A stretch of 64,000 bases of DNA from Ptychodera flava (lineage: Eukaryota; Hemichordata; Enteropneusta; Ptychoderidae): contig NC_091935.1 in the NCBI RefSeq assembly GCF_041260155.1, forward strand, positions 6,749,501 to 6,813,500. Direction: 5' to 3'. The translations under genes and the position numbers were made by a program. Under the pieces are notes generated by a model, which worked only from the letters and a program-made list of their open reading frames with translations, was not told the DNA's origin and ran no database searches. This document shows, piece after piece, positions 6,154-44,334 of this stretch (the stretch's first letter is position 1; every line of letters begins with the position of its first letter).

Positions 6154-16187
<10,034 letters not shown>

Positions 16188-22054: not shown

Positions 22055-25000
22055 ATGACGATGAAAAACCATTCGATGATACCGCCGTTTGTGGCAGTTC
22101 TGGTGTTGTTGGTGTGTCACGTCCACGCTCACGTACGGATGACATTTCCTCCTGCAAGAGAGTTCGATTTCGATTTCCTTGACAACGTTCGTACCAGGGG
22201 ACCATGCGGTATGCGATCAGGTCCAGGTAGGTACCGTAGAATGGTCCGTCATTAGTTCACAATTTTTACTGAACTCGCGCGATTCAAGGTTAACATCGCA
22301 TTTTTTGCGGTTTCGTTGGGTAGTTTCTGAATGTATGCAATTTGCAAGTATTCAATTCACTGGCGACAGCTTGCAAAGGTGCGCGGACCACGATATCACC
22401 TGGCGTACATTAAATTTAAACCAGAAAGTGGTTTCATGAATTCACTCATCGCAACGATTTTTCCATTTATTTTCCCCGTCACATTCTGTTATGTACTACC
22501 GTCCCCATTCCCCCGGAGTTGCGAAGGAATCATATATAGAATGTGTGTGCATGTGAAAGTCAAACAACTATTGAAGACTGGTTCAATCAGCGGTTGTAGT
22601 GTATTGTGTACGTACGCGGTACGTAAAAGGCCCGGTAAAAGGTTCTCTCGCGTACCCTCCAATGTTCATTATGTAGTGTAAGGTTAACCTGGCCCAATTC
22701 CGCCATTGATGACTTTTTCGGCATGAAAAATATGTAAAGCTTGCTACGAAACTTATCGTTATGTAGTTTTGTTTCTGGAGTAGCGCTTTCTCTGCGTTGC
22801 AGGTTTCTCTCCGGCACAGGCGTTCTGTATTGTGGGTAGTTTGTAAAAGTGTAGTTTCTGCTACGTTCCGACGTTCTCTTCCGTAGAACGTCGGAACGTA
22901 GCAGAAACTTAGCTGCAATAATTGTAGCCTTGGTTGGCCGTGGGGCTTGGGCTTCTGTCGTGCGGCTCGTGCCTTGCCCCAACCAAGCAAGGCACGAGCC
23001 GCACGACAGAAGCCCAAGCCCCACGGCCAACCAAGGCTACAATTATTGCAGCGTAGCAGAAACTACACTTTTACAAACTACCCACAAAATTAAAACAGAA
23101 CGCCTGTGGTTACCGGCTCCGAGCTGCCAAGCAGTGCTAGCCTAAGAGCGCTATAAATCTTCTACTTAGCACTAAGCTATGGCGTGTTACAGAAGCTCTT
23201 GTGTTTTGTTTGCAAACACTTGTAATATTTCCCCTTTATTTGTCTTAACGTACACGTTTCAATGTACTCAAGGAACAGCGCATTGCTTTTTTAACGTCGT
23301 GAGCCGAACACAGAACTATTAAAAAATAGAGACCATTCAGTACGAATGTAATGTTGAACCATGGAGGTAGTCTTCCTACCTCTATGGTTGAACAGATGAA
23401 ACCAATTATGGCAAGATAGCGTGCTATGGAGAGTGCTTTGAACTTAGGCTTAAACGGCTGGAGATTCTGACAGCGACAATTCAGGTGCAGCCAACGGAGC
23501 TATTTATCGAAAAAGCTATCCCGGGAGCAATTTTTTGAGGGCAGGGGACCTTTAATTTTCTTGGGCAGGGGATATATTTTTAGCTGGCAGGGTGCAGATC
23601 TTAGTTTTTCTGTCGGGCATGGCAGATATCGGTTGATTGGCCTGGGGACCGGGATAGGGGAAAAAACGATGAGAGGGGAAGTTAGGCCTACTTGTAAAAC
23701 TGGGACAGAGGAGGTTGATAGTTATAAAATTAAATATGAGGAAAATCGACAGGTTTTTATCACAAGGCAGGGGAGTTTCATGTCTGCAGGGGAATGATAA
23801 CATTTTAGGGGAAATTTTTTCCAGGGCAAGGGAAATCAAGGGTTTTTTTTCCGCCACAGGACAGGGAGGCTTCAAAAATTCTAAATGGGGAGGGGAAACA
23901 GGCAAAAATATGTGGGGAATGGGTAAAAATGAAGTTTGAGTGCGGGAGGGTAAGTCGAAAAATTTTCAGTTGGAGGGCAAATTATGAACAGCTAATTAAT
24001 TACCCTCTTGACTTAAAAGTAGTCAGTTCACATTACATGTCATGTACAATATATCTTATCAAAATAAGGACCCCTTAAAAGTGCACTGTTCGTTGGCTGC
24101 ACCTGAAAATTTGTCATGAAAAGTGTGCAATTGTTTCGACAGAGATGTGTATTTGTTCCAAACATGTATACACAATGCAGCATGTTACCAGTACCCCAAA
24201 AAGTTACTGATTATTGTGTCATTACATTAATTTATTCCATATCGGCATTTTTGAGGCTCTATTATCTTGTCTTTGACATTCAAAAAACGCCTATTACTAA
24301 TAAAAATACCTACAATTATATTACCATGCCTGTCCATCGCATTTTAATTGGTCGAGCTGAACCATGTGATCGACCACAAATACGCAATAACAGTTTGTTT
24401 ATGAGCCCGTGAATATGAATAATATCGTAAACATCGTAACTTTTCAGCTAAACCGTAAATTGTAATCTGTACGAAGATCATAATCAATCACAAAATGAAA
24501 TGGAGCACTTGTGGGCCAAGTTTAGACACCTTTTTTTGAAAAATCTCCGGATTTGCAAAATTTTTACAGTGCGCGCATTACTCACTGAAAAGTTCTGGGG
24601 CCCCGTTGTCGTTCGCGCGTCGCGGGGGAAATTTTCGTAAATTTTGACGGTTTTGGGGGTTCGTTGATAATATAATGGAAATAACAGACTCCGCGCTGAC
24701 CATTAACGTTTATTTATGGGCGCGGGCTCGAGGAAAGCCAAAATTAACGGGCTCGGCAAGCCTCGCCCGTTAATTGGCTTTCCTCTCGCCCTTACCCACA
24801 AATAAACGTTAATGGTCAGCGCGTCGCCCGTTATTTCTATATTAACCATCTTGACCTGGTGGTGAAATATGGCCTTGGCAGGAAAAGGGTTAATAAAGGG
24901 ACAATCACCGTCCGGACGGTGGGACAATGTACCCGAGGGCGGATGACCATTTTGCCGGACCCAAGGGCAACTGGTCTCCTTCCCATGTGTAAATAGTCCA

Positions 25001-28000
25001 TTGCCTCTCTTGTGTCACGATTGCTTTTTCACACATAATGAGAGGTATCGGTCGGGGATTGTAACGCTTGCAGTAATTGAAGCTGACACCAATTGGTTAT
25101 ATACACCAAATTGCTAAACAGTCATGGAGACAACTACAAAGTCAACTGTCCAATGTCTCTACCAGCTGGCTTCTACCCTTTGTCTTGAAAGTATACGACT
25201 TAAATCTTTCCAAATCTACATATTGTAACGAATGCTTTAAACTTTGATTACATAATGCACTGGAAGAATGTAAAAGGTGTCCAAAACTAAACTAAAACTT
25301 GTCAAAACAGTATTAAGATGTTCTAAAAAGGCAGAGCTTGTTGACGAAGTTTATGACTATGTTAAAACAATACATTACGATATGTTCTCACGGATGGCCG
25401 ATGATTGTAGCATCTTTAAACATCAAGGGTTGCAACTGAATTCAATAGTGTAAAATATATAACAATAGCAAGTTTGTATAAGAGATTTCTCAGCCTTAAC
25501 AATTCGAGAAAGGCTTGATATCACGTGGATATCATTGTACACCAGGCATGGCATGGCACTCGTTACACTATCATATTTTTCCCTATGAATTTTAGGTTTC
25601 AGTGAAAAATGACAATCACATGCTTTTCCCCATGGTAGACTATAATCCATTAAGGTAGAACACACCCCGGGGACAGATATTTAGACTGTCAAATTTCTAC
25701 AGTTCTTTTCTAATCTACCACTTGTGAGGGCTCATTTAAAAGCTCTTGGAGAAAGAAAAGCTTTAACTTTTTTACTTTTTCGAAAATGCGAAAATTTATT
25801 TTTCCCCACAGAGTTAAACAGGGATGGCGGCCATTTCGAACTTCCAATATTGCAAAATGTTGGGTAATTTGTTTCGCTAGTTCAAAACTTTTCACAGTGA
25901 CCCCCAATGTTCATTGTTGATTTGGTAAGAGGTTGAAAGTTTCTTTGAGGAAAGTTTGAGCAAAAGTTTAAGACTTTCACTTTTGAGGCGCATTCTACCT
26001 TAAAAAGGTCATTTTCATCATCGAATGTCACATACATATATCTAAATGATAGCTGTCATGAGTTTATCAATTATTATATATAATTTTCAAAAAAAACAGA
26101 TTTTCTATATAAAACATGTAGTTTGATCATTTTTGAATCCTAAATTTTTAAAATTGAATATAGTTCTGGGTCACTTTCAGTCAAATGATTTGTCTTGGTT
26201 ACCCAGACTGCTCTGCTGAGGCTCTCTGACTGTGTGGATCGCTACATCATCATCAAGTCACCATAAAATTCGTTGGGCATACAACTTTTTGATATAGAGG
26301 CATGTAATAATTAATAATAAGAGATGGATTTGCCTGCATGATAATTATATCTGAATAATATCTATCACATTTTCAGTCATTAGCTAAATAGGTCAAAGGT
26401 CATGTATTTAAATTAAGATTACAGATAACGTGTGCAAATGGTATTGATTGAAATGAAGATTTATAGATTTTCACTTTATGTGAACTTATTCAATCAAACT
26501 TTCATGTTTTGCCCTTTCAGCTGGACCTCTGACGGTGTTGAAGAAAGGCCAGTCCCTAAATGTTACATGGCACTTAGCATATGTGCACAGGGTAGGTCAA
26601 AGTTCATACTCTTCCATGTACTGTAGATGGACTAAATGAGCTGACTAAATCTCTTTTTTAACTCTTTGAGCGCCAAAGTCAATTTTTGTCACCTTTATAA
26701 AATATACTCTAGTAAATTTTTTCCAGATTTTTGCCAAAATTTGGATAAAAAATGTATCAAATGAAATATGTCTATTTGGTCCAAAATTAGCAAGAAAATT
26801 ACAGAAAAATTTGCAAAAACTGGTAAAATGTTGTACTAAAAATTTTGGTGGGAAAAAATTACGGCACTCAAAGGGAATTTAAACTTTTGAGTTTGTTATG
26901 AAGCAAGATACTTCCTCTCACACTTTGCCAGAGCTTAGGTCATTTGTTCAACACTCCTTGTCATTTGAGTGACACCTGTTACACCCATGGCATATTGATT
27001 TGACTGAGGCTGTGACAGGACACACCTGAGTGTTCTAGACTGTCTACTTAAGTTACAGACTGTGCATTGTCAACAAAATACTATGACATGGTTGCATACA
27101 AACATGAATCTTTCAGAAGCACAACAATCACCTGAGACTAACCTCATTTTTATGCAGACAGACAGTCTGACCCAAACGGAAAATTGCTGCAAGGAAATAA
27201 AATCCCGGTTGGAAATTTCCACAATCTGATAAATGTGGAAAAACACCTACATTAAACTATAGTGCTCCATTATTCTCAATAGTTTATTTTCCAACTCTTG
27301 GAAGAAGTTTTTCCAACATTGGTAATATTATCACTTGTCAGTATGTATTCACCTTTGCAATTTAGTGGCCTCATTATCTTAATGATAACACATGTACATA
27401 CATGTAAATGTCTTCAAAAGTCTCTATTTGATGATTTTAGAAATTAACTCTCAAAACTCTGACAAAAGTTTAGAAAAAGTTTTTTCTTCAGGAGCTTCGG
27501 TGCATCAAAAGTTGACTGTAGAGACATTGTTCTCAGGAGGTCAGTGGAAATTGCTTCTCAAAGTTATTTCCTGGTACTGTTCAATACCCTATGTCCGCAT
27601 CCCGAGTAAATTGAACCCCATTTGATTGCTCATAGGAATATGTAGGTTTAACGGTAGTTTGTCTGGAACCCATTGAAATAATGGGCTCTGCATGGCAAAT
27701 GGGCTCTACTCTGCAATTATTATTGTCATGACCTCCCAAGAAACTGGTCAAGCGTTACGATTTAAATACGTGAGTCAAAGAAAAGAACACGTGTTAGAGC
27801 CAGCACTGTGTGGTACCATTCAAACAGTATGGGAAAAAATAGAAAGTTGAGTCGTGACTGCACTGAACCATGCAAATATGCATTACGGAAGCCATATGTT
27901 TACCTACAAAGTTTTATGGGGTCAACTCTTCATGCCATACCTAAGTATCATAGAAGGTGGGCAACAGAAATACTTGGTACCTGTGTTACAAGACAATGGA

Positions 28001-31000
28001 AACTCACTCCAAAAACAATGACAGAGAAATTGCTAGTGCATATATAAAAATGTGGCAGGCACCTTCATGGAAATTACACAGATTTCAATACATCGCTTTG
28101 TTAATGTTGAATAGGTTTTAAATCTAATCTCACTTTGTGTGTGTAAGTGGCACCTGTAGAGATCTCAACATGTACTTGTGCTCAGTCACGATACATTACC
28201 ATTTTGCAATGGGCATACAAATATACTGCTTGTCAGCAAGTAAACATGTGTCAGTCAGCTTTTAAATCCATTAATAGAAACATTGACATTTTTGTTACTT
28301 TTACGATCAAACATCACTAAATTTGTTGATAGTTTAACACAGTTATTGCAGAAGACAATTACTCACACTATGCTTAAAGCATTTTGATCTAGGTTATAAT
28401 CATTTTTTATTGTAATATATATGAATTGCTCAAAATTGATGTGCATATGTGACTCCAGCCAATAACTAGACCTGTGTCAACCTAATGTGTTACTTTGGAG
28501 TTACTAATATGGAAAATGTTTTTATCTATGCTTTAACAGTGGTAAATATATAGTTCAATATGCTTGGCTTTAAACTCAACACTAATTGGTGCTTGTGGAA
28601 TATGATATTCACATTAGATGTAAGAATTTACCATTGATGATTACCAACTGTGGTACTGTTTCCTTCATACAAGATACTGCACTGGTGCAGAATGGGTACT
28701 TACAGTTATACGAAAAAATACCAAATTGACATAAGTTCAATGTGATTTTTGCTTTTATTGTACCCCCTAGGGTGGAGTTCTGATTGACATTTTGGAAGGT
28801 GATGAAGTGAAGTACAATTTGACAGAGTCAGATTTGGACAACTTTGTCAACCAAAATGATTCCACGTAAGTTTTCATATATTTCATTTCATATGTTTGAT
28901 ATTGACACTGCTGATGAAGCTTCAATCATCGTTACAGCAAACAGATAGACATCGGGGTTATATTGAATTCTGCCAGGATTCTGAAGGCCAGCAGCCTATA
29001 TCATGCTCTGTTTGTCACATACAATGATAATGGAATAAAATAGACGCACAGTGTTCTGCAGACTCAGCACACCCAAGAGATCACATGATGCTGTTACAAA
29101 CAAACCCACAAGTACAAAGGCGTATAGAAATAAATGTCTTTCTGTGTGCTTTATGTATGTGGGTTTGTTTGTACTGTGGTCCATTCAAATTCCAGGCTTT
29201 GTTCTTACAATACATGTATGTATATTCTGGAGTAGTGCGCCCTCTAAGGCTGAAAATGAATGCACCACTGAATCAAGAAAGTTCATACTGACACCAGAAC
29301 CGTTTACCTATTACATGTACTGGACCACTGAGGCTTGCTGTGTAGAAATTTCCAAAAATATTCCTGGATGGACTGTACAAATTATAACGAATTCCTAAAT
29401 CCACTCAAAGAGTTTGTAATTTGGATAGTACATTGTTCTGGGGTATCTATAGATACATGTACATGTACTAACAGGCCAAATAAAAAAAATTGTGTTTTCA
29501 GTAACATGATTGCCTACAAAAATTAGGGTAGCGTAGGCCACAGGAAATTTTAGTTTGTTTTTATGGCTGAAAGCCATAAAATACAATTAATTCAGAGAAT
29601 TTACTTGAAATTTTTTTTAAATGCGAAAAAGATGTCTATAGGGTCAGCAGGTTTTTTCTAGGAATGGTCAGGTTACCGGAAACACACACATAATTTTTTA
29701 TTTGGCCTAATGAAAATTAGCAAGGACTTTTAAGTTAATTTAGTACTTCTGAACAAGCTCCCCGACAAGAACATTTTGTGAATGATCTAGAGATTTTCGT
29801 CTTTGAAATAGATTACATCACACTTGATCAATGTCAAGTTCAAATTGACACTATTATGAATGTGGGAAGTCTTCATTTTCATATATCAGTATTTTTTTAA
29901 TCAAGAGATTGAACATAATAATAATAATAATATTTATTTCTTATAGAGCGCATTACATTTTAAAAATCTCAATGCACTTTCACACAACACTAAAAAAGAG
30001 GTAAATTATAAATAAAAATTACGAGAAAACACCAATAAAATGCAAGGAGATAAAATTTTAAAAAATGTCTAGGAATAAAATGAGCTAAAAAGATAAGTTT
30101 TTAACTGACTTCTAAAATTGTTATAAAAATTAGCAAGCCTTATAACAAATGGTAAAGCATCCCACAAATGGGGAGCACATACAGAAAAGGCTCTATTGCC
30201 ATAAAAAGCCGTGTTGCAAACAGGCTGATGCAAAATGATCGCACCACTAGACTGGGACCTAAGTGTACGACCAGTATGACGTACTGTAAGCATTTCTGCT
30301 TAATAGTCAGGGGCTTGGCCTGTAAAATTTTATAAGTGAAACAAAGAATTTTAAAATCGATTCGCTTCTGGACTTGAACATAATGTTACTTTCAGATATT
30401 AACTTGAAAAAAATGCAGAAATAGGTTTTTCAAAATTTGAAGATTTTCAGTCCCAATTTTTGTGTATTTGTAATCACTGTCAGCATGCCAGAAGCATATG
30501 TAAGGTAAAAAAGGGGCAAAATAATGTAAAATGTAACATCACATGTGTAGCAGTCATCATAGACATCCTAGATTTGTGTTTCAATAAATCTATTGAGTGC
30601 ACTTGGCTTTGTTCATGACAATTCACTTGACATATACCATACTGCTACAGTTCATACCACTCTTGTCTTGATATTAACTCTCAGAGGTCAAACATTTGAA
30701 GATAAACATGTGTCAGCTAATGCTAAAGCTTAAAGTGCTGAAATTTCTAAAATTCAAGTTGACCACAGACTGCCACAAGGAGTATCACGTTGGTACATTT
30801 AACTCTGATTTGAAAGATTTAGTCAAAGGAAATCCATAGTTTGAACAGCAATCATGGCAAAAAAGGTGTCAGTGTGGAGTGGTTAAGAAGATTGTAGCTG
30901 ATTGGCTGTTTAGAATAATTCATCAGTGTCAGGGAAAGTCGGCCAACCAATAAGCAGCAATCTTTAAAGGTGCATGGTATTTGTTAGGACTTACTCGTAA

Positions 31001-31271
31001 ATCTCTTAGAAGATAAACACAAAATAACAAGATGTTGCATTTTTGTGATAAAACTATTATGTAGGGCAAGGTTTAAAAGATCAAAAGTGTTCACCAATTC
31101 TGCATTTTATTGTTCATACTGTCGACAGCTCCCAGCAGGTAGAAGTCACTTTGCCTTCAGATTTCATGTGTGAGAAATGTACGTTGCGATTGCTACGACA
31201 AGCCGGAGAGTGGACCGCAAACAGATCTGGTGGATACCTCTTCTGGAGTTGTGCCGATATCAAAATTACAG
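22055..31271 (+). CDS. Exons 1-4: signal peptide and LPMO-like His-brace domain
   Basis: After the hydrophobic stretch PPFVAVLVLLVCHVHA the mature chain begins HVRMTFPPAR. It continues with GPCGM (Cys51), WHLAYVHRGG (His80), CEKCTLRLLRQAGEW (Cys127, Cys130) and YLFWSCADIKI (Phe151, Cys154). This matches the LPMO pattern: histidine at position 1, a second histidine in an A-x-x-H-x-G-G-like turn, and an axial Phe/Tyr just before a final SCA(D/Q)I strand. Four cysteines could make two disulfides. The domain is about 135 residues, shorter than typical LPMOs. I cannot place it in a named AA family from memory alone. A structural or copper-carrier role instead of catalysis remains possible. Confidence 0.75.
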
Positions 31272-34200
31272 GCAAGTTTAGCACATCAAAGCCCAGGTAT
31301 AGAAGTGTTTTTTTGTGAACTGCGTATTTTATTTGGTGTATAGTTGGGTTTTTCACGAAACCGTATTGCTTAATCCTAACAGCTTCTTGGTTTATTTCTC
31401 GTTTAATCTCAGATGATAATATGGGATGTGATGACAATATGACATGCTCTGGACTTGGCACATGTAATAGTGATGACACGTGTGACTGTATGCCTGGTTA
31501 CTTTGGCGATTATTGCCAGTATGTCGGTAAGTGGTCTGTAGTATATTTCACACAGCATTAAAATTGCTTACAACACATTGGAAAATGCCAATTTATAATA
31601 AAATTCATGGAAGTTTCAACGATAGAGACAGATACTGACACCATAAAAAAATTCAGCCAGCAAGAGCAGCATTCAGGAACTCCGATGACTACGTAATGAA
31701 ATGAACATGCAATATTAGCCAATCAATTTTAACAACTGTAGGAGGTTTATAATATAATCAGCCAGTTTGGGACATAGTAGTGCTTGAAATTGTATTGTCA
31801 TCAAAGCCTTTCTGATGTATATCTATGTGTGTGGGTTTATTAAATGCGTATTGAACATTTTTATCATCATAGTAGATCAAAATAATATGATTAAGTGAGC
31901 TTGTTGTCATTACTTATTTTTAAATATTTTGGTTTCATTTTGCTGGTTCCTGTTTGTGGAATTTATGGTCAGTTGTGAGCCTGAGTTACAAGATGATAAA
32001 TTATATTTGTCTCAATTAATCTATTTATAAAAACACTTCAGTTTTAAAGCAGATACTGTAAGAAATCTTGCCATTGAAAGTTTTTGAAGATACCACTTTT
32101 TGGGTATCATTTAAAAAAATTGACAGTTTTTCATATTAAAATGATGTTAATCATATTGTTCAGATTAATGACAGAAATCAAATCACATAACATTCATGAG
32201 CTACTTTCTCTGCAGTACAGTGATTGTATATCAATTCTGTTTGTTACAACTATTGGTCCACTTTACTCAGAATTTCAACTTATTAAAATTGCACAGTCAC
32301 TAATAATTTCCCTGACATTCTTCAATTGAGCCATTCTAATTTTTGACAGCCATGGATTATTCCAAGTTGCCTACAGTTCAAATTGTACAGTAATAAAGCA
32401 AATCCAGTGACAACCAATCACATAATTCCTTACTTGTACATTGTACCTGTCTCCATGGCAATGCCCACAAATGAGAAACTGATTTGGATTGGTCTTTCCC
32501 TTCCTAATCAGTGAATCATGACTTCAAATGGAGATCAGAGTATATACAGTTATAACCATGGTAACATATTCATATTTATCATCAAGACAAAATTGTGTTT
32601 TCAAATAGATACAACTTCTGTCATTCTATGACCAATATAGAAAGTACATATTTGCCTTTGTTTGACAGATGGATGTGTCAATGACACTGATTGTTCTGAC
32701 CATGGAAAATGTTTGGATACCATGGCAACAACTTACCCAAAGAAAGTCTGTTACTGTGAGCCAGAATATTTTGGTGATGACTGCTCGAGAGGTATGGAAT
32801 CACAGCATTTCATTTTTCAGCAGTTTACTGGTATGATTGTACTTGACTGATGTAATACTCTACCAAACACAAAGCATTCTTGTATGTTGTATATTTCAGT
32901 GACCTACCTTAGTATGCTCTTGGTATGATCAAAGTAATCCCATTTACCCCTTTGCTATGATGGTTTGGCCCAAATCCATCAATATTATCCCTTTTACCCC
33001 TTTGCCACAATGGTTTGGCCCAAATCCATCAATATCATCCCTTTTACCCATTTGCCAAAATAGTATGGTGCAAATTCGATATCAGTTGTGATTGTGGACT
33101 TGTTTACCTGCAATCAGGGGTGAATTTATAGAGATGAGAAACATGACAGTTTGAGACTGTTCGGTCTGAAAGCAATGAAGATTTTTATCAATTACTATCG
33201 ATTTAAAAAACTGTTAGTTTAATGAGAGTCTTATCTTTTATCAACAGTAAATCCATCAGGCTTTACTGCAGATATTGCAGAAAGTCATTATTATCATGTG
33301 AAGCTTGCAGAAGACTTTGACATGTTCTGGAAACTAATGACGGTAAGGCAGCCCATTTTCAGCAAACTCACTTCTCCTTCTCTAAGAATAAGTCCCAAAG
33401 TTAAAACCTGTATCTTGCCAAACCTGTCACAATGCACTGAAATCAGGCAACACATCTTGAGACATGCAAAAGAATTTTTTCAAAAAATCTTTTGACAACC
33501 TTGTCACATGCTCTGCAACTTTTTATTTGGAAATAAAAATGAGTTGTAAATTCATTATGTGAGCCTTATACAGTATAACACTGTACATTTAATGATGAGA
33601 TACATGTGAAAAAATTTAATTCAATCTCTTCTACTCAGCCACTTCTTATATAGACATGACCTATGACCCCACGATTCTGCACAGTGAAAATTTGATGTCA
33701 CTAACAAACAGAATAAAAAAAAAAACAGAACAGAAGCCTATTATCACCATTTCTGAAATCATGACTCCTCCAAGTTTGTTGTATGGATACACAAATGTAA
33801 TAATGGGGATGCAAATACTCCAATACCAATCATAGTTGGCATCCGCTACAGTCTGAAAGATCTGTCAACTGAGGGCGCTCTCTATCGAGTTTCAGTCTGG
33901 CATCTGTAAAGTTGCTTTTAATTTGTATAAAAGTTACCTTTCGACAATTAGTTGTCAAACAGAAACTGTCTTGTTTTCCTTTGTTCATTGACCATGATTC
34001 ATCTCTCACATTCATTTTTTAAATTTTAATTCAGGCTAGAGATGAGATAGAAATTGCGCTCAAAGTGAAGACGACCACGTGGGTTGGTCTTGGAGTCAGA
34101 CCAATGGGTAAGAATCATTAGACGTAGCTTAAGCTATCTGATACCAAATCAAAATATGTCAAAACTTGCACTTTACAGATGAATATTCGCATGCATTTAA

Positions 34201-37200
34201 CATCGAAGGGATCAAGTAGAAGGTATATGTGTTAAATATCAATATGTGAGGACCTCCCAAAGAAAATCCACTGTAAAATTTTGAACTTTGAAAATATTAT
34301 AGTAATTGGTCTGCAGCTTTAATGCTGTTATTTGTATCTGGTAGAGGAGATTGATCCTTCAGTCTTGTATTATCATTCTCAAAGAAGGATGGTCAGTTGT
34401 TTGAATTTCAAATATTTATAAGTGAAGTAATTAGCCACAATTTGAGTTCACACATGTGAGCTAATATCGCACCTCAATCTGTCTGTCAGATCTCAGCCTC
34501 AGTCTGTCAGTGTCTGTCTGTCAGCACAATATCTAAAGGACGGCTAAGGGACTGGTCAGTTTCTTAATCCAGGGGGTGTCAAAAACAGGGTGACACCCCC
34601 CCCCATGAATCCACTGGCCCCCCCCTAGGCCGAAGAAACTGACCAGTCCCTAATCAGATCAGAATCAAACTCTGGTACTTTCTGTTTGAGAATTAGAAGA
34701 ACTCATCTGTCTTGGTGGGTGTGGTTTGCATAATTGATACTAATTTGCATATTTTTTTGTTCAGAAATCAGTTTTTCTTAGAATGACAATATCATATCTC
34801 ATGAATGTTCTTAAAGAATATGTTAATGAAGTAGCAACATGACAGATTTCAAGGTCAGTTAGGAGTTTAATTGGAGAGTATGGCTGTGGTCATTTGCATA
34901 TGTCATGAACTTTACTAATTAGGGCTATATACCTTGCTTGACTTGAGCTAGGTTGACAAAAGTCTCGATTTACATTGAAGATGATATGTACATCATGAAA
35001 GTCAGTATGCATTTTTAAATCAGCTAATTAATAATTTGCATAACTAGTCAACTTTCCTAGTTATCGACTTGACCAAAGTTAATGAAACTTGCTGCGTATA
35101 AATGTATTGATGGTAGAATTGCATAAAAGACATTTTGCATTTTCATATAAGCTAATTATTGAATCGTATGATGACTGCTCAGCTTTCACTTGGCATATAA
35201 ACTTGAGGGAGTTGACCAAAGGCAATTTACTGTGCAACATTATTAAGTGATGATGCAATTAAAATATGACAGTGGTGAAGAAATTCAGCATTTTCATTTC
35301 AGCTAATTACTTATTTGTATACATATAGTCAGAGATGATAGTGTCACTTTTAGACTACTGCAACATAACAGTACAGAAACACATGAGTATTTTCAGTTTG
35401 TATCTGGTTTTGTTCTCCCGTCAAAAAGAATTATTAATGGTCACCAAGTATAAAAAGCTTAGAGTGTAGTATGTTGGTGGCACAGCTTTATCATATGACA
35501 CAGCAGTACATAATTGTATAACCTTCCATAACACTATCTTCAACAACAAACTGTGATATGTAGATTGTAAGTAACTGTCAAAAGCCATTAAGTTAAGGGG
35601 TCTAGGTTAGAGTTGAGTTGAGGACTCCCCAGAGCAACTGTTTTAGTTTTACTCACTCTATAGTAAGCATCTACAAAACTTCACTGTGCAGTTGTATTGT
35701 ATTGTTAATTGCTTTCAGGTTTGGCAGGGACTTGCCAGAACTTTCCAATCCAGTACAATGGATATCCAGCAAATAACAACAATACAAATACTGGGACAAG
35801 GGTAAGTTGTAGACGTGGATATACCTTTATGAATCCATGGCATTTGTATTCATCCGATTTGGATGCTCATTTTAGATAAAGATACTTACTGGGAATACCA
35901 GTACAACCTGACAAGTTACATTAAGATTGCAAGTTTTGATATTTCAAATATGAATATCTGTGTAAAGTACTGATAGTCCCTGGCCTAGCATTAAAGGTCT
36001 GTGCCAGCATCAGATTGTCTGGCAGGGAAATCTACTTATTAGATTACAACTGAGAACAAAAGGATATGACAGTCCATAATCTTCTTATAGACAAAAGCAA
36101 ACTTGATCCTGGGGATCAAGTCCCTGGCCTTTAAGTGGACAGCAACTAGAGTTAATCACATTAAAGGGAATTTGTTGGAAATAGTAAATAGAAATGTTTA
36201 GCTTACTCTCAGTTGAACTTATTACAATATCTGTGTGATTTGTTGAACCCACATATTATATTATTTGAATTTCTGAATCTGCATGAAACTTCTTGCTGTG
36301 TCAAGTATTGACCTGGTATTTGATCTTACTTGACAGCGGCGCCGTAGTTTTATCGGTACTCCAGACTTATTGGATCAGTCAGAGTCATCAGATGTTCTGC
36401 AGAGATTTCGTCGAGAGCAAGGCAATTCTGAAATGTATGATTGCAGGACTGCAATTCCTGAATCTGAAGCTGAACCGGAAACTGAACCAGAACCGGAAAC
36501 TGAACCAGAACCAGAAACAGAACCAGAGTCAAGCTCAGAGCCTGAAACTGAACCTGGGCCAGGTAGTAAGTACTGATATTGTTTCAGTGTGATGGTGTAA
36601 CACACTCAAGATGGCTTTTTCATTAGCTTCTTCATTAATATTCTTATAAATGTGCCAGTATTCTAAATCACACAACATATAAACCGTCATCAAAGGCATC
36701 CTTGTCTTGTAACTAGGCTGTTAAACTTAGTCTGTAAATTGCATCCAAACTTCTTTTCCACTTTATCAATGTCATTCATCCCCTTGATACCATCCAATTC
36801 ACTCAGATATTTGAAGTCACTAGCTAATATGGCATAAATATTGTCTTTTCATGACAACAGTTTCAACACCTCCCTGTATTCTTATACTATCATTCAACAA
36901 TATGTTTCATGGATGCATCAAACATATACAAAATATAGTTATTGGAGCATTCATCAAAGCTGTATACTCTTCACAAGTTCAAATGATCTGTTGGTGGTAA
37001 AAAGTGTAGGACCAACAAATCCACTTTTTGAATTTCCCAGAAAAGAAAAAGCAACATATGATTTGTGTTTGGTCAACTTGAAAGTAACCTATTTGTTCAT
37101 AATGTTAAAAGAAGGTGTAGCTGTAATATTTGAACAGTTTATGAATTGTTGGTAAAGTAATTCTAGGCTGAAAATGTTTGCACTATTTCAATGACGTAAA

Positions 37201-40200
37201 ATTTTCTTCTGAAAGTTTTTAACTTTGCTGCTCTGGGAGGCAAATCCCCCTCAAATTCCTGTTTAATACACTGCCACAACACACTTATTCAAAGAGTTTG
37301 TGTCGCTGATACAGATCTTCACCCCATGGACTGTACTGACATTGTGATCGGTGGTGTAAAGATGGGTACATTGAGTCGCATCGGTGATTTCTACACCAGA
37401 GATAGAGCTACTCCACGACCAGATGATTGGTACAGCAGTGATGGTAGTGATAGTCTAGTCGCTGCAACTGGGAAAGAAGCAGATGGTGTCACTACAATTG
37501 TATATCGAAGAAAACTCACAGGTAAGGTAGATTTATATTGTCTTGTAGAGGGAGAAACCTGTCAGTGATTCTGACTGGTGAAATTTCACCCGCAAAGGTA
37601 TTTCTCTGAGTGCTTTAGTAATTTCAAAAGGCCTCTAGAGGGCGCCCTCCGCAACTTTTCGATTTGTGCCCCTGATTTTACCTCTTGGTTACATTACAAG
37701 CGGTTCATCTCATTACTGACAACAAGTAATGAAGTAGGGATGTGCATGTAGCCAATGGGGAATGTGTGCCATGGACTCTCATCCATATATTATACTATGA
37801 AGAAGGGCATTTGGAAAATGGGTATAGCACATCTCAAAAATGAAAAATTTGTAAGCTTTTCCTCATTTATGCATTTATTTTGGATTCTGTGATTACGGTA
37901 CTATCACAATTGTAAGCGCTTGAAGTGGCTGTTTGGTCTCACAGATATATATCTTTCCTAGTGAAAGGACATAGTTATGTAAAACTTACTGATCAGCGGA
38001 GTTGGAAAAGTGCAGATTTGCTGAAAGTATAAAAGCTGAATTATCGTATAAATCTATGCAAATGTAAAAAAAAGCCACGCTACTGATCGGAAATGTCGTG
38101 TTTGGTCCCAAAATCCCACAATTTTGCCATGTTTCCGGCGTTCATTGTCATTGAATCTTGCATATGATGTGTGTGAATATATATAGCAATTAAACTTGAG
38201 TCGAAAAATAAGAAAAAAATGTTCCGTATTTTGTTGGAAAAAGTGTTCCCTATACATATACGACCATTTGACCCCTCTTTGCATATGTCCTTCTACCCAG
38301 TGTATGAAAATGGCTGCATCATCAGTAATCACCCTATTGTGCACCCACGGTCCTGTAACTTCCTGTTTTACTTTGAATTTTAGGACTTTTTTCATAGAGT
38401 GAAATTTTGTTGAAATTTTTTGTAACCAGCAGCCTTGACACCATTATCATTAAAATCATATGACAAATTCAAGTTCAAAATGAACAATATAAATTGTAAG
38501 TGTGATATTTCAAAAAAAAAATATCAATATTCAGATAGTTGAATGGAACTTGAGGGGAGTATATAATTTAATTTATCATTGAAAATGAGTAATTGCAGTT
38601 GCCTGTGTGTTTGGACTTGTCCCTAACAAATGGTTGAAAAGATTTCCTACTAGAAGCTGCGGCTTCAATTAGAATTTTGGAAATGACCTCATCCAACTTT
38701 TGCGTTTACCTTAGAGGGACATAAGCTGTAACTTGTGGCAAGTGTTTCAGTATTCTGCTTCTGTATATCAACCACCGTGTCTGACCCTAATCTGTTTGTC
38801 ATGCTGAAAGTATTCTTTTTGTCAACATAGCTTGTATGTGTAGTGATCATTGTTTATTGTTTACAAATGAATTCTAGTCCGGACTTGAATACAATTTTCA
38901 ACAATAACAATGGAGATTATAGTCATATAGGTTGTGTTGATATGCTAAATACTTGGCATTTAATTACAGTTTAGGGATTCAATGCAGAAAGTGTAGGAAA
39001 ATCACAAAAGAAAAGTTCTGAAAAAATAGCGAAAAGATACAGCTAATTATGGAGCTTTGACCAAGTTCTTCTTTGTTTTATTTTGTCTTGACTAGCAATG
39101 GAAATGACTGACCACAGCATATCCAATGGTTTGACTCATGTCATATGGGCCAAAGGTCAGGACCCTGGCAACTACTGGCACACACCGCCATCTGGCATAG
39201 AGACCTGCATGGCAACAGATTACATGTTCTACAGAAGAGATGAACTCAAATATCATGGAACTCTACCAACCCAAAGAGGTGTAACAAGCATGAATTTCTA
39301 CGGTATGTTGAAAATGTGTTGGAAACAAATTTTGCATACATTGTGTACCATTCAGAGAACTTTAAATGCTGATTTGATAATGAATTGCTCATATTACGGT
39401 AGTATATTCATCTTCCATAGCTTTATTTCACTATATCCCTCACTGATGTAAAGGTCAGTGCATGTGACCACAATTACATCAATTTAGAAAACCAGTGCTT
39501 GACTCAGGATTTTCTTTTGTGTATCATGTTGTGACTTGGGGAAATTCAGAAATTTGTAAACTGCCGTGAAAAGTTGAGATATCTTTGAAATTTGACGGTA
39601 CACTGAACAAGCGTGTGTCCATGGTATTGACAAAAAAATGACTTCAATGTATATCAAAGTTGCAGATAAAGTATTCAGAAATACAAACACTTCTTTGATT
39701 CAAATAATTCTCAATTTCATGAATAGTTGTACATATTTTTTTATTTATTTATTTATTTATGCAAATTTTACTAATGAGCATTGTTTAAGCATATGCAGAC
39801 CGTAGGATTATGAGTCATAGAATATTCATTGGTGTTAACCCTTTTAGTGCTGAAATTTTTCCCACCAAAAATTTTGGTGCAACATTTTACCAATTTTATG
39901 AATTTTTATGCAATTTTTTTTCATAATTTTGGATCAAAAGGACATCACATTTCATTGACTACAGATTTTTTTCAAAATTTTAGCAAAAGTTAAGAAAATA
40001 TTGACCGGTGTACGTATCATAAAGGTGACAAAATTTGACTTTGGTATTCAAAGGTTTAAACAATGCATTATAAATGTACTTTGATATGCAAATGGCACTT
40101 CTGCAATACAGTGGAGAATTGCAATTGTACATATTATGAAAAATTTCAGTAACCCATGAAAAATCAATCTACTATATGGTATATACAACTCTGCAATTGA

Positions 40201-43200
40201 AAAGTTCTTCCATGGTGCATTCAGTGAAGCGCAAGTCATTTATACCAATAACACATGTTTAATATGTTGTGCAATTTTCTGGTAGTACCTTCCTTTTGTA
40301 CAGTGTCAGTAAATTTCTCAAAATGATAGCAAGCCAATTGTATTTTCAGAGGATCCAGATGCCCCTCCCAGTACAGGTCATTGCCGTGGCCAATGGAGCA
40401 CCCCACAAGGTTGTTCTGGTAGCGACTGTACCTACCGTGCAGCTTGGGTGTACGATGGGTTTGATGACACTATGACCTTTGAGATAACATCCAGAAATGC
40501 ATACGATAGCAATGGAAATGCTAAGTGGATTGGCATTGGCTTCTCAGATGATAGATACATGGTTTGTGTAGATCTTCTTCTCATTTGGTTTCTTTGAAGT
40601 ATGATTGTATGCTTTAATCTGTTATCATAAATAACAGAGAAATGCTATGTTATTGATTGATATCTACTTTCAACACCATCTTTTTATACCAGCATAGTAA
40701 ATCACAAGGAACTATGACTGAATAACAGTAAACAAGTAAATAAAAAATAGAAAAAAATAGAAAAAATGGTCTACCATTGTAGAGTAATAGAAAATACGGC
40801 TAGTTTTCAATCGGGTTCGAACCCACAACATATGGCATCAGTCGCCTAGCGGAGCAGATGACCATGCCACTACCAAGGTGAATCTAGTCGGGAGGACCAT
40901 GCCATAGCAAACTGAATCTAGTCTGTTTGTTTGTTTGCTTGTTTATATGTTTGTTTTTGTTTACTTATTTTTGTTTATTCTGCCTTTTTTTCTTTTTTGA
41001 CCATTTTTAGTCTCACAATTGATCAGTCAGTCATCTGTTTGTTTGCTTGTTTACCTGTTTGTTTTTGTTTACTTGTCTTTGTTTTACTTTTTTCCTATTT
41101 TTTTCTAATTTTCATTTACTTGTTTACTGTTATTCAGTCAGAGTTTCCAGTGAGAAAATTTCATCAAACTAATAGAAAAGGGCACGTTTTGCTGTTGCAG
41201 ATCATAATTGTAAATTTTGTCATCTCATGAAGCATCGCCTGCATATTATATATTTCTGTACGAGGTGTCAAAAATGTCTAAAACAAATATTTAGTTTCGA
41301 TTAATGATGGCGCTGTAATGTCACACACCATCGGGAATCAGTCCAACAAAGATCATGCGTCTTTATGAGGTGACAATAGCCTTTCTTGTGTCAAATACTA
41401 CAGTCATTATCATCCTTTCTTCACTGTACTGCAATTCATTTTCTCTGTTTAACATAAAATAATAGCAAATGATGTGGTCAGTCGTTTGATTTCATAATGT
41501 GGTGATTTGTCAAAAAATTTAAAGGAAATTAACATTTGGTTTGTTTTCATTTTGATCACTGAAAGGTCTCTGGTGAAACATGTCGCAGGATTATTTTAAA
41601 TTTGAAAATTCTTTGTGACCATGCATGCACATACTTTGATGTGCGTGTATTATTTTATTCTTACAGGCAAATAGTGACATCATTGTTGGGTGGCTTCAGA
41701 TGGATGGCCAATCAGAAATCACAGACAGGTGGGCCTCAGGTAAAACCCATCCTCCAGTGGACGCACGCAAAGATCTCACAAATACAATGATATCGACTAA
41801 CAATGGCGTGACGACCATGAAATTCACACGAAAACGGAACACCAATGACAACCAGGTATTTAAAAAGTCAATACAATATTTGTTTTGCACTTTTTTTGCA
41901 TTTGGATTCAGATCATTTTTGTAATTGACTGTTTTGAGAATTAGGGACAGGCAACCCTTAGAAGTATGGTATTTTATTATGTTGATGCTATTTCTCAGTA
42001 AACAATTTGTCTCACAGATCAAACTATCTCAGTGTGTTCTTCAGGAGGAATGTGCGAATCCCCTCTAACTAATTAATCAAAACCCTTGTCAAATAAACAC
42101 AAACGCCGCGACATAATATATGTCATCTTTTTGCAACAAGTTTTGCGATTATGATTTATACAGAGTGTTTATGGTAGCATTCAACTTCATGATCATTGTC
42201 TTCTATCATACATGCTATGCCTGTATAGCCATTTTTTATTGTTAAGAGAGTACTGATTTGAACCCTTAAACTGTTAAAATATTTCTTGGGCCTGGATTAA
42301 CTCAATATCTCCACTCAATTGAAGCAGACGGGAAACATGAGGGTTCGCCGTCACTTCAAACATGCCCACAATATTTGTGGCACGTTGGTTGTCTGTTGAG
42401 CATGTTGTCGTCTTCGATGACATCACACGCCTCCAACGCGCAATTTTTGAAAATGGTGCCCAAAGAATCAGAATCTTGAGCAATGTTCATGTCAAATTTA
42501 CCATTTTCTTCCATCCATGCATGTAAAATGTCCACGGAGAAAATTAGGCCATTTGTAGCCAGCATTACATAAGTAATGACAATGCAGCAACATACACACC
42601 TGTACAGGAATTCGGTTGCCTCGACCACTTGGTATGCGGCGTGTACTGTTCAGTTGAAACGACTCGCCAACTTTTAGGGTGAAAAAACACGCCAATGGCA
42701 ACTCTCCAAGCCACAATTCCAATTCCCATGATTCAGCTAGGTCTTATATATCTTGCGGAAACATTGACAGGCAAAACCCGAATCGTTCATGCGAAAAAAA
42801 TAACAAGATTTCAGGACACCAAGTGCTCTGGCTATGCCTTCGTGTCAGGTCACGTGACCATCAAAAACAAATTGGCAATCCAGAATACTTTTAAATATAT
42901 TCACACTTAGAATTAAAGATTGTTACCGACAGGAATGGCATCAACAAATCACAGATTCATCTAGATTAACATTGTATTGTGAATTTAAATCGCTACTAGA
43001 ACCGGAAAGATATTAAATATTTTAAGCCAGAAGTACAAACTTGTGTTATCAAATTTTCGCTGTTCTTGCCATAGACTTAATGTTGAGACCGGGCGTCATT
43101 TAAAGCTTCCATATCAGGAAAGAATGTGTGTTTAGTGTAAAAATGCAAAAGATATAGAGTTATTGAGACAGAGTTTCATTTTGTATTTATTTGTCCATTG

Positions 43201-44334
43201 TATGCAGACATTAGAGACGAATATATACCAATGTCACTGAGAATATATCCATCACAGGACAAGCTGATTAGAATTTTATCTTCCCAAAATCCACAAGTTA
43301 TTTGTCAATTTTCTAAGTATTTGTGGAATGCCTTTAAACGTCGTGATGAAATAGTTTCAGATTTGACAATTTAGCAGATATTTGTTGTGACTCATTGAAT
43401 ATACTGAATTGTTGTTGTATCTTTATTTGTCTACTGGATTATAACCATTCTTCCTTTTCCTCTCTCTGTCTGATTTTGTATATTTATACATTTTTTTGTG
43501 TCCGGCTAGAAATTCACTGACCATCGATTATATTTAAATGTATTTTGTAAATATTCTGTACGATGGGCCGAGGCCCTGTATTGAAATAAACTGAACTGAA
43601 CTGAACTGTTAAAATATTTCAATTTGATATAAGAGTTATTCGGAACTATACTTACACCTAGGTATATGCGTTGGTATATTCATATACATAAACAGGTAAA
43701 ATAGCAAACACTCCGAAACGTCATTAGTTATCGTCCAAATAATTTCCATAAATTCCATATCAGTAAAAAGAGCATTAATATGTGGATATAATCAGAATAT
43801 ATTTATGTATCTGTTTATTTCAGGATATTTCATTCACTGACTCAGCGTGTAGGTATTTGTTGTACCCAGTCAGTGGAGGTAATGTGGTGAACCATGATGC
43901 AATGCAAATTGGCTATCACTCATCCACTCCTGTCATTTCGTCTCAAAGAATTTGTATCGGAGAGTGTCTTGCAGTAGGATCTTGTAAGTATTAATTTTAA
44001 ACAGTATTTTTTTCACAGTTAATTAGGTTGGGTAACTGTGTGCACTATAGGTAAGAGTATTTTCAATCACTGAAATACAGGTAACTTGGATTGCGAGATA
44101 GAAAAACCATATTGAAGACATGTTCATTAAATATTAAAGTGAATCACATTTCATAAAGGTCAATGAAGGTCATTATTGACTATTGAACATCGTCGTATTC
44201 TACAACCAATCAGAATCAATTACTGATACCTTTCAAATTATTTTATACATACAGCTATCAAAACATCCATGCCATCAGTACATCTGGTCGTCATGGCAAT
44301 GGTGCTGAGCATAATGATGCTGATGAGACAGTAA
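22055..44334 (+). CDS. LPMO-like His-brace / 2x EGF / 2x DOMON protein, 749 aa, 16 exons
   Basis: The exons are 22055-22226, 26521-26591, 28771-28865, 31129-31271, 31413-31526, 32669-32791, 33248-33342, 34035-34107, 35719-35801, 36337-36562, 37315-37521, 39096-39302, 40350-40561, 41667-41855, 43824-43983 and 44255-44334. They total 2250 nt (749 aa plus stop) with every phase consistent. Order of parts: signal peptide 1-25, LPMO-like domain 26-160, EGF-like 166-195 and 201-237, DOMON-1 about 253-530 with a long insertion, DOMON-2 about 566-705, hydrophobic tail 732-747. The chosen Met gives a 25-residue signal peptide whose predicted cut (VHA|H) exposes His26. LPMO-like domains bind copper through their N-terminal His; DOMON domains bind haem or sugars. 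I infer a cell-surface or secreted redox protein, possibly acting on a polysaccharide. Intron 4 is GC-AG. A possible poly(A) signal is at 44527. Confidence 0.85.
22815..23108. repeat. Nested perfect foldback (palindrome) in intron 1
   Basis: There are three nested hairpins. A core of two 65-bp arms (22912-22976 and 22988-23052) is perfectly complementary with an 11-bp loop. A second hairpin with 24-bp arms (GTTTCTGCTACGTTCCGACG and on) has a 7-bp loop and lies at about 22854-22908. The outer arms (22815-22865 and about 23053-23108) share CACAGGCGTTCTG and a GTGGGTAGTTTGTAAAAGTG segment. No mismatch is seen in the core arms, so it is very young, maintained by conversion, or an assembly artefact. 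Long open frames reading across it are palindrome translations. Confidence 0.9.
23353..23394. repeat. Small hairpin, about 18-bp arms
   Basis: GTTGAACCATGGAGGTAG and its near-exact reverse complement flank a 5-bp loop. It may be a very small foldback or MITE remnant in intron 1. Confidence 0.6.
23481..24106. mobile_element. MITE-like element with TCAGGTGCAGCCAACG ends
   Basis: The 16-bp inverted repeat TCAGGTGCAGCCAACG starts at 23481 and ends, reversed, at 24106. The 626-bp interior is purine-biased with repeated GGCAGGGGA-type words and no transposase. It lies in intron 1 of the His-brace/DOMON gene. Confidence 0.6.
24666..24848. repeat. Foldback element with long inverted arms
   Basis: CGCGCTGACCATTAACGTTT at about 24692 pairs with its reverse complement ending at about 24822. 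Inner arms (AGGAAAGCCAA and ATTAACGGGC) pair around a short centre, and the outer ends share GAAATAAC. The whole 180-bp unit can fold into one imperfect hairpin, consistent with a foldback MITE. Confidence 0.75.
25650..26003. mobile_element. MITE with TTAAGGTAGAA ends (best family copy)
   Basis: TTAAGGTAGAACAC at the left and the reverse complement of TTAAGGTAGAATGCGCCTC at the right delimit 354 bp. Relatives with the same internal words (CAAAATGGCCGCCAT-like, AGAGCTTTTAAAATGA-like) occur at about 19870, 20463, 54280 (interrupted) and 59875, and a fragment at about 50870. The TTAA ends suggest a TA or TTAA target. Confidence 0.7.
26661..26876. mobile_element. Short MITE-like repeat with CTTTGAGYGCC ends, copy 1
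   Basis: The ends CTCTTTGAGCGCC and GGCACTCAAAG are inverted relative to each other. The interior is T/A-rich with AAATTTTGGTGGGAAAAA near one end. The same unit occurs in opposite orientation at 39835-40058. Confidence 0.6.
29919..30350 (-). mobile_element. 3' fragment of a non-LTR retrotransposon (LINE)
   Basis: The minus strand translates to a typical LINE reverse-transcriptase C-terminal tail: FYGNRAFSVCAPHLWDALP, then NNFRSQLKTYLF. It is followed by an AT-rich end and an AAT microsatellite at 29919-29942, which is the 3' tail of the element. Only about 430 bp survives, so this is a 5'-truncated copy, CR1/L2-like by style. It sits in intron 3 of the plus-strand gene. Confidence 0.75.
31413..32791 (+). 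CDS. Exons 5-6: two EGF-like domains
   Basis: Exon 5 (31413-31526) encodes six cysteines spaced C-x5-C-x5-C-x5-C-x-C-x8-C (residues 166-195, ending GYFGDYC). Exon 6 (32669-32791) encodes a second set, C-x5-C-x5-C-x12-C-x-C-x8-C (201-237, ending YFGDDC). Both exons are phase 1-1, the classic shuffled EGF arrangement. No calcium-binding D-x-(D/N)-E motif precedes the cysteines. They link the His-brace domain to the DOMON part. Confidence 0.85.
32946..33063. repeat. 50-bp tandem repeat, about 2.3 copies
   Basis: ACCCCTTTGC recurs at 32946, 32996 and (as ACCCATTTGC) 33046. The intervening TGGTTTGGCCCAAATCCATC is identical. It lies in intron 6. Confidence 0.85.
33248..39302 (+). CDS. Exons 7-12: DOMON domain 1 with a long insertion
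   Basis: The first strands read DFDMFWKLM and IEIALKVKTTTWVGLG. The domain resumes after the insertion with HPMDCTDIVIGG, GDFYTRD, GVTTIVYRRKL and THVIWAKGQD...YWH. DOMON family members that bind haem use a Met just before the D-I-V-x-G strand and a His near the end; here these would be Met403 and His496 (His482 is an alternative). Between WVGLGVRP and HPMDCTD lies an extra stretch of about 100 residues (roughly 296-400). It carries a basic TRRRRS motif at the exon 9/10 join and an acidic PE-rich repeat encoded by exon 10. Exon 10 has two in-frame donors three bases apart (after 36562 or 36565). Confidence 0.75.
34548..34650. mobile_element. Solo Harbinger-like MITE, 103 bp
   Basis: The ends GGGACTGGTCAGTTTCTT and its inverse delimit 103 bp, flanked by TAA on both sides. 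A 3-bp TWA duplication is the hallmark of PIF/Harbinger insertion. The interior has GTCAAAAACAGGGTGACACC and C-runs, the same words as in the larger copy at 54417-56068. Confidence 0.75.
39835..40058. mobile_element. Short MITE-like repeat with CTTTGAGYGCC ends, copy 2 (inverted)
   Basis: Reads as the reverse complement of the unit at 26661-26876, from CCCTTTTAGTGCTGAAA to TTGGTATTCAAAGG. It lies in intron 12 of the plus-strand gene. Confidence 0.6.
40350..43983 (+). CDS. Exons 13-15: DOMON domain 2
   Basis: The frame reads AAWVYDGFDDTMTFEI, then KWIGIGFSDDRYMANSDIIV, then THPPVDARKD, GVTTMKFTRKR, and MQIGYHSSTP. This is a compact DOMON with Met607 directly before the NSDIIVGW strand and His702 near the end. 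That is the same pair that ligates haem in cellobiose dehydrogenase cytochrome and ferric-reductase-type DOMONs. A cysteine-containing linker (HCRGQW, GCSGSDC) separates it from DOMON-1. Exon 13 ends at a weak donor (ATG|GTTTGT). CICIGEC-like cysteines 714 and 718 follow the domain. Confidence 0.8.
40800..40910 (-). mobile_element. tRNA-derived SINE-like sequence
   Basis: On the minus strand an A-box-like TAGTGGCATGG lies about 50 nt upstream of a perfect B box GGTTCGAACCC, as in tRNA-derived SINE heads. Stem pairing of a real tRNA is not convincing, so I call a SINE head and not a tRNA gene. Low-complexity TGTT-rich sequence lies beside it. Confidence 0.5.
42960..43612 (+). mobile_element. 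3' end of a LINE with ACTGA tail
   Basis: Across two frames the plus strand gives a LINE C-terminal signature: FRCSCHRLNVETGRH, LPYQERMC, then PMSLRIYPSQDKL and KYLWNAFKRRDEI. It ends in an untranslated GGGCCGAGGCCCTGTATTG followed by AATAAA and GAACT tandem units. It is 5'-truncated and decayed, with at least one frame change. It lies in intron 14 of the His-brace/DOMON gene. Confidence 0.7.
44255..44334 (+). CDS. Exon 16: C-terminal hydrophobic tail
   Basis: The last exon encodes SIKTSMPSVHLVVMAMVLSI and then MMLMRQ before the stop. About 16 hydrophobic residues followed by only Arg-Gln, after a small-residue stretch GSS, look more like a GPI-attachment signal than a full transmembrane helix. 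It would place the protein on the outer cell surface. An AATAAA lies at 44527-44532. Confidence 0.7.

Follow-up and report, generated by a model that had tools for sequence, protein, structure and literature searches.

The locus treated here raises the question of whether a copper domain, EGF modules and DOMON domains are carried by one animal protein in Ptychodera flava, and of what such a protein would do. It lies in a 64,000-nt stretch of genomic DNA, the whole of which is referred to as the window hereafter. The initial annotation had described a gap-free frame of 16 exons and 749 aa, and an independent rebuild reproduced both its length and its end: 16 plus-strand exons with compatible phases form a single open frame of 749 aa, from the ATG at 22055 to the stop codon ending at 44334. 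Fourteen of the 15 introns, which range from 141 to 4294 nt, have GT-AG splice sites, and intron 4 is of the GC-AG kind with the donor AG/GCAAGT. The exon 10/11 junction is less certain, four alternative joins giving 750, 755, 756 and 782 aa. From the N-terminus, the encoded protein has a signal peptide, a His-brace-type copper domain (26-160), two EGF modules, two DOMON domains and a hydrophobic C-terminal tail, distributed over the exons as follows.

22055..22226 (+): exon 1, signal peptide (aa 1-25), His26 (codon 22130-22132) and the GPCG block with C51; gene model, H26 lying on position 1 of the bacterial profile
26521..26591 (+): exon 2, part of the copper domain, including H80 (codon 26586-26588); gene model, bacterial H80 column
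28771..28865 (+): exon 3, copper domain; gene model and bacterial profile alignment
31129..31271 (+): exon 4, CEKCTLRLLR, F151-W-S-C154-ADI (F151 codon 31241-31243), end of the copper domain, GC donor; gene model and bacterial profile
31272..31412 (+): intron 4, 141 nt, between the copper-domain and EGF exons
31413..31526 (+): exon 5, EGF module 1, 6 Cys, phase 1-1; gene model and Pfam
32669..32791 (+): exon 6, EGF module 2, 6 Cys, phase 1-1; gene model and Pfam
33248..33342 (+): exon 7, start of DOMON 1; gene model and Pfam
34035..34107 (+): exon 8, DOMON 1, WVGLGV strand; gene model and Pfam
35719..35801 (+): exon 9, opening half of an insertion in DOMON 1 that leaves the frame unchanged; gene model and Pfam
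36337..36562 (+): exon 10, remainder of the insertion, with RRRR (first R from exon 9), RFRR and an acidic EPET-type repeat; gene model and Pfam
37315..37521 (+): exon 11, DOMON 1, candidate haem ligand M403 (37326-37328); gene model and DOMON alignment
39096..39302 (+): exon 12, end of DOMON 1, candidate haem ligand H496 (39179-39181); gene model, His placed by eye
40350..40561 (+): exon 13, DOMON 2, with M607 (40559-40561, the last codon of the exon) as candidate haem ligand; gene model and DOMON alignment
41667..41855 (+): exon 14, DOMON 2; gene model and Pfam
43824..43983 (+): exon 15, final part of DOMON 2, with H702 (43917-43919) as candidate haem ligand; gene model, His placed by eye
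44255..44334 (+): exon 16, hydrophobic tail SIKTSMPSVHLVVMAMVLSIMMLMRQ (first codon shared with exon 15) followed by the stop, a probable GPI-anchor signal; hydropathy
44527..44532 (+): AATAAA, possible polyadenylation signal, starting 193 nt past the stop

The three residues that the initial annotation had assigned to a copper site were all located in the rebuilt model: H26 directly after a hydrophobic signal sequence ending in VHA, H80 in WHLAYVHRGG, and F151 in LFWSCADI. Signal cleavage after VHA would expose His26. With the full protein, Pfam gave DOMON at 2.5e-43 (three stretches) and EGF_2 at 1.5e-7 (two stretches); each EGF module is encoded by one phase 1-1 exon, which is the usual pattern of shuffled modules. 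There are eight N-glycosylation sequons in the 749-aa model, one of them within the signal peptide. The tail has its hydropathy peak over 727-749 and no cytosolic part, and on its hydropathy it is probably a GPI signal, so that the protein is predicted to be GPI-anchored; fungal Bim1 is described as GPI-anchored in a passage of PMC10952591.

As for the function, our preferred reading, which falls a little short of an even chance, is an extracellular copper-haem protein, secreted and probably GPI-anchored, that would use DOMON haem to reduce a brace copper. His26 and His80, with F151 in the axial position, would form a histidine-brace copper site in a domain of the kind present in bacterial SCE4755-family proteins, close to fungal X325/BIM1 and short of a full LPMO. 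The two EGF modules would serve as a spacer, and each DOMON, of the DBH/CYBDOM type, would hold a b-haem between a Met and a His. An extracellular donor, either ascorbate or a membrane cytochrome b561, would supply electrons to the DOMON haem, from which they would pass to the copper within one chain; no electron donor domain (b561 or flavin) was seen by Pfam in the chain itself. The likeliest output would be redox handling of copper or O2 at the cell surface: Cu might be reduced and held for uptake, or O2/H2O2 chemistry might be run under control. The cutting of crystalline polysaccharide would be a less likely output. In the boldest form of this reading, which we regard as rather unlikely, the two DOMON cytochromes would feed the brace copper intramolecularly, and the protein would act, without outside partners for this step, as a copper-haem oxidase, a peroxygenase or a cupric reductase; no counterpart of such a self-sufficient protein was met among described systems. 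If true, histidine-brace copper chemistry would be extended to a minimal, fused, membrane-anchored animal form with its own electron supply, and haem-to-copper-brace transfer, known from separate fungal proteins, would be measurable within a single chain.

The family of the copper domain was examined with three profile models. LPMO_10 of Pfam matched at 24.9 bits with the full protein and at 30.3 bits with the domain alone (cut-off 23), and the match runs from profile position 82-83 onward, leaving about the first 81 positions unmatched. BIM1-like (PF20238) gave 22.2 bits with the domain alone, under its gathering cut-off of 27, and aligned domain residues 1-134 with profile positions 3-121 of 140. 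The best-scoring named family was NCBIfam NF043005 ("SCE4755 family polysaccharide monooxygenase-like"), with 40.1 bits and an E value of 3.4e-10, under the equivalog cut-off of 75. On these scores the copper domain is a homologue of the NF043005 family and not a member of it, and the P. flava protein provides a eukaryotic lead into this bacterial family.

Bacterial relatives were collected by scanning prokaryote genomes for the motif CTLQ[LV][IVM]Q of SCE4755-type proteins. The scan gave 99 loci with 104 pattern-bearing ORFs, of which 78 had the downstream Cys pattern and 66 also a mature N-terminal His; the other 12 of the 78 were dropped as truncated or unmatched, one of them (L059) being plainly unrelated. 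With a profile of the 66 bacterial domains, the copper domain scored 52.9 bits (best domain 50.4) in an end-to-end alignment that starts at His26 and reaches the last strand, while the best of 1000 shuffles of the domain reached 4.7 bits (best domain 3.9). With about 32% identity to its best bacterial relative (40/124), the copper domain is, as far as profile comparison can tell, distantly homologous to the SCE4755 family of bacteria.

The conservation within this set has to be read column by column. The 66 domains had been picked or trimmed by means of the motif (including C130), the N-terminal His, C154 and the CG of the GPCG block (C51), so that conservation at these places is not independent. 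The columns of H80, C127, F151, E76, R85 and M138 played no part in the selection. Among them, the H80 column has His in 66/66, the C127 column Cys in 65/66, and the F151 column Tyr in 66/66 bacterial domains. The E76 column (Glu in 65/66) and the R85 column (Arg in 66/66) have Leu in the P. flava protein, and the M138 column (Met in 66/66) has Ala. The D104 column, Asp in all 66 domains, is kept in the P. flava protein, whereas the Arg of HPGHYR, likewise invariant in the 66, is absent from it; because the Asp is kept and this Arg lost, the substrate or partner of the animal form may not be that of the bacterial ones. The P. flava domain shares with the SCE4755 family the N-terminal His, the second His, the CG and C..CTL..CAD cysteine blocks and the aromatic residue three positions before the last Cys, and it differs from it in its sub-threshold score, in the replaced E76, R85 and M138 columns, and in its fusion to EGF and DOMON. 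Seven of the nine bacterial tails inspected end in a linker and a hydrophobic anchor.

For the distribution of the domain, it was found in at least 26 of 140 sampled genomes from the phylum of a genome labelled Labilithrix (at 1e-10) and in at least 1 of 149 from the phylum of a genome labelled Planctomycetota (at 1e-8), the seed genome being included in each count. A first genome scan with the bare P. flava domain gave 81 pattern matches, of which none was confirmed, and three scans of viral contigs gave 25, 0 and 54 pattern matches, again with none confirmed. Two tblastn matches in plasmids (E 5) were rejected as chance. At six bacterial loci, 20 flanking ORFs were called mechanically, some of which are surely not genes in this GC-rich DNA; five of the 20 had a Pfam family at 1e-5, with no common theme. 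Among 15 genomes of bacteria that carry the copper domain, none was found to have a DOMON, in a search whose positive control also gave none; with this silent control, no conserved partnership backs the redox coupling. Five loci (L006, L011, L014, L026 from Nannocystis, and L083) carry two SCE4755-type gene copies each, about 0.85-0.9 kb apart, and in a further Nannocystis locus (L022) one copy was seen.

To what extent is the domain an LPMO? Twenty-six of the 66 bacterial domains were aligned as a family profile; NF043005 matched 26/26 of them, and BIM1-like and LPMO_10 matched 23/26 and 22/26, respectively, at E up to 1. Against the PDB, this profile found TdAA15A (3.9e-5), AoAA13 (1.9e-4), PcGH61D (5.8e-4) and AA10 (0.026), and 8 of the 9 chains among the matches listed were LPMO-type by name. 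Addition of the P. flava row gave 7.2e-6, 6.4e-4, 1.6e-4 and 0.0013 for the same four, with LPMO-type chains again 8 of 9. A direct phmmer search of the PDB with the copper domain alone found no LPMO and only chance fascin and kinase matches, and no X325 chain was matched in any of these three PDB searches. Counted along the chains, the alignments put H80 at position 91 in TdAA15A and at position 76 in PcGH61D, and F151 comes to lie at position 160 in PcGH61D; we take these positions to be copper ligands and the first residue of each chain to be His1. The initial annotation's statement that H26, H80 and F151 are the three positions of an LPMO copper site therefore stands as a computed alignment of sequences: the N-terminal His and the second His map onto the brace positions, and the axial Tyr/Phe position before the last-strand Cys is occupied.

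What is weakened is the word LPMO in its enzymatic sense. Counted along the chains from His1, the two brace histidines are about 75 residues apart in PcGH61D and about 90 in TdAA15A, whereas H26 and H80 are separated by 54, a value inside the 47-67 range of the 66 bacterial domains; the full core with a long inter-His stretch is therefore not present, and the LPMO_10 match starts late and the E76 and R85 columns have become Leu. The long loop, which makes up much of the substrate face of LPMOs, seems to be missing here. Because of the short spacing, the partial LPMO_10 match and the whole-domain BIM1-like match, the domain is placed between LPMO and X325/BIM1; judged by these alignments, it is a minimal histidine-brace domain and is not filed as an LPMO. 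With AA15, AA10 and AA9 LPMOs it has in common a homologous core, the brace histidines, the axial aromatic residue and the last-strand CADI. With X325/BIM1 it shares a short domain and the His-brace, although its score lies below the PF20238 cut-off. X325/BIM1 is also short-spaced between the brace histidines, X325 has an Asp as a further copper ligand, and to our knowledge there is no DOMON in X325.

These features bear on the alternative that the protein is a self-sufficient LPMO, in which the copper domain would cleave chitin, cellulose or an extracellular-matrix polysaccharide oxidatively and the DOMON cytochromes would take the place of cellobiose dehydrogenase as source of electrons. The score over the LPMO_10 cut-off, the matches of the family profiles to AA15, AA9, AA13 and AA10 structures, and the retained axial position agree with this alternative; moreover, cellobiose dehydrogenase can reduce LPMOs according to a passage of PMC7924993, and its cytochrome has a DOMON fold according to a part of PMC4846438. 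Nevertheless, the 54-residue spacing and the match to only the later part of LPMO_10 make polysaccharide cleavage doubtful, and it would be less likely than for a true LPMO. PMC7924993 also describes several X325 members for which degradation of polysaccharides was not detected, and gives Bim1 a part in copper uptake. We thus consider a glycan-cleaving enzyme unlikely.

The DOMON domains provide the second half of the proposed copper-haem protein. Against PF03351 (gathering cut-off 32.7), DOMON 2 scored 99.0 bits. The match of DOMON 1 was split in two at 57.7 bits and became continuous, at 67.5 bits, when exons 9-10 were omitted; the two DOMON domains of the initial annotation are thereby confirmed. 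As for the haem that it had suggested, a candidate Met/His pair at a haem-ligand-like spacing is seen in both. M403 and M607 align with each other, weakly and with the DOMON 1 row cut by hand, and H496 and H702, placed by eye, follow them by 93 and 95 residues. For plant HYP1, a part of PMC10784544 gives a proposed M90/H174 pair, 84 residues apart. M607 lies opposite a Leu of human DBH in a weak match (E 0.16), and the DBH DOMON is described in PMC4846438, within the part cited above, as being without the typical haem axial ligands. In PDB searches, DOMON 1 and a two-row DOMON profile had no match and DOMON 2 matched DBH alone (at that E value), so that no haem-DOMON chain such as cellobiose dehydrogenase was among the matches of either domain; no CDH-cytochrome model was among the Pfam matches of the full protein. 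Haem in both DOMONs is plausible from the placing of these residues. In comparison with CYBDOM proteins and DBH, the P. flava protein shares the DOMON family and has a candidate Met/His pair like that of HYP1, and it differs in having no cytochrome b561 or DBH catalytic core by Pfam and in combining two DOMONs with a His-brace domain.

One region of DOMON 1 deserves separate description. Exons 9-10 (35719-36562) form a frame-neutral insertion with the furin-like sites RRRR and RFRR and the acidic repeat; they amount to 309 nt, and skipping them keeps the frame and leaves 646 aa. Because DOMON 1 is continuous and scores higher without them, these exons may be alternatively spliced or may provide a cleavage point.

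A serious rival to the copper-haem reading is a matrix or adhesion protein resembling insect Knickkopf, in which the DOMONs would be sugar-binding or structural, the EGF modules would space them, and the copper site would be vestigial or structural. EGF modules are common in adhesion, and the copper domain has lost residues that are invariant in its bacterial relatives, both of which suit this role. Knickkopf itself is a chitin-organising protein whose DOMON is described as essential for activity in a passage of PMC11354708, and it is likewise an animal DOMON protein acting on extracellular polysaccharide. It carries DM13 domains, however, where the P. flava protein has EGF modules and the His-brace domain. 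In spite of the low identity to the best bacterial relative, the protein retains all three residues of the copper site and the four cysteines of the domain, and both DOMONs have Met where the non-haem DBH has Leu. A purely structural role is accordingly given only a small share of our confidence.

The last alternative, that two or more adjacent or nested genes (a copper-domain gene and an EGF/DOMON gene) have been joined in error, is very improbable. In its favour, exon 4 could extend 15 codons to a stop, its junction with intron 4 has a GC donor, and a nested first exon farther upstream is formally conceivable. Against it, intron 4 is so short (141 nt) and free of ATG in every forward frame that an independent EGF/DOMON gene would have neither a start nor a signal peptide within it, the earliest ATG in frame with the EGF modules (M164) lies inside EGF 1 with no signal peptide, the phases match across the exon junctions, the donor sequence is a typical GC donor, and a sentence in PMC6950343 mentions LPMO_10/DOMON/EGF sequences from elsewhere. 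In addition, the alignment to the bacterial copper-domain profile spans the junctions of exons 1-4, and that to the DOMON model spans exons 13-15. The copper domain, EGF modules and DOMON domains thus appear to share one gene, and the fusion proposed by the initial annotation is borne out at the DNA level.

The same annotation had seen in this architecture the strongest candidate for an undescribed system in the window, and the word undescribed is too strong. In a 2019 LPMO tree (PMC6950343), LPMO_10 sequences with DOMON/EGF, apparently the same domain combination, are mentioned in one sentence as an early branch; the section on these sequences contains no analysis of function, cofactor or residues. 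Within the open-licence literature, covered mostly by titles and the starts of abstracts, neither an account of the function, the copper-plus-haem reading, the bacterial kinship or the short brace nor a paper under the name SCE4755 was found. The domain combination has thus already been noted, and it is these four aspects for which no earlier account was met in that literature.

Several other features were observed in the window, in which no tRNA or Rfam match was found. Downstream of the copper-domain/DOMON gene, a 362-aa open frame at 48671-49759 (+) matches the ZIP zinc transporter family (PF02535, 4.3e-63), and a C-type lectin domain exon (PF00059, 9.1e-10) lies at 9449-9820 (-). Fragments that by eye resemble the C-terminus of a LINE reverse transcriptase occur at 30069-30385 (-) in intron 3 and at 43141-43610 (+) in intron 14; neither piece had a Pfam match, and the latter is followed by a short tail of TGAAC-type repeats. 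Intron 1 contains, at 22855-23075, nested near-perfect inverted repeats, found by eye, which are foldback- or MITE-like.
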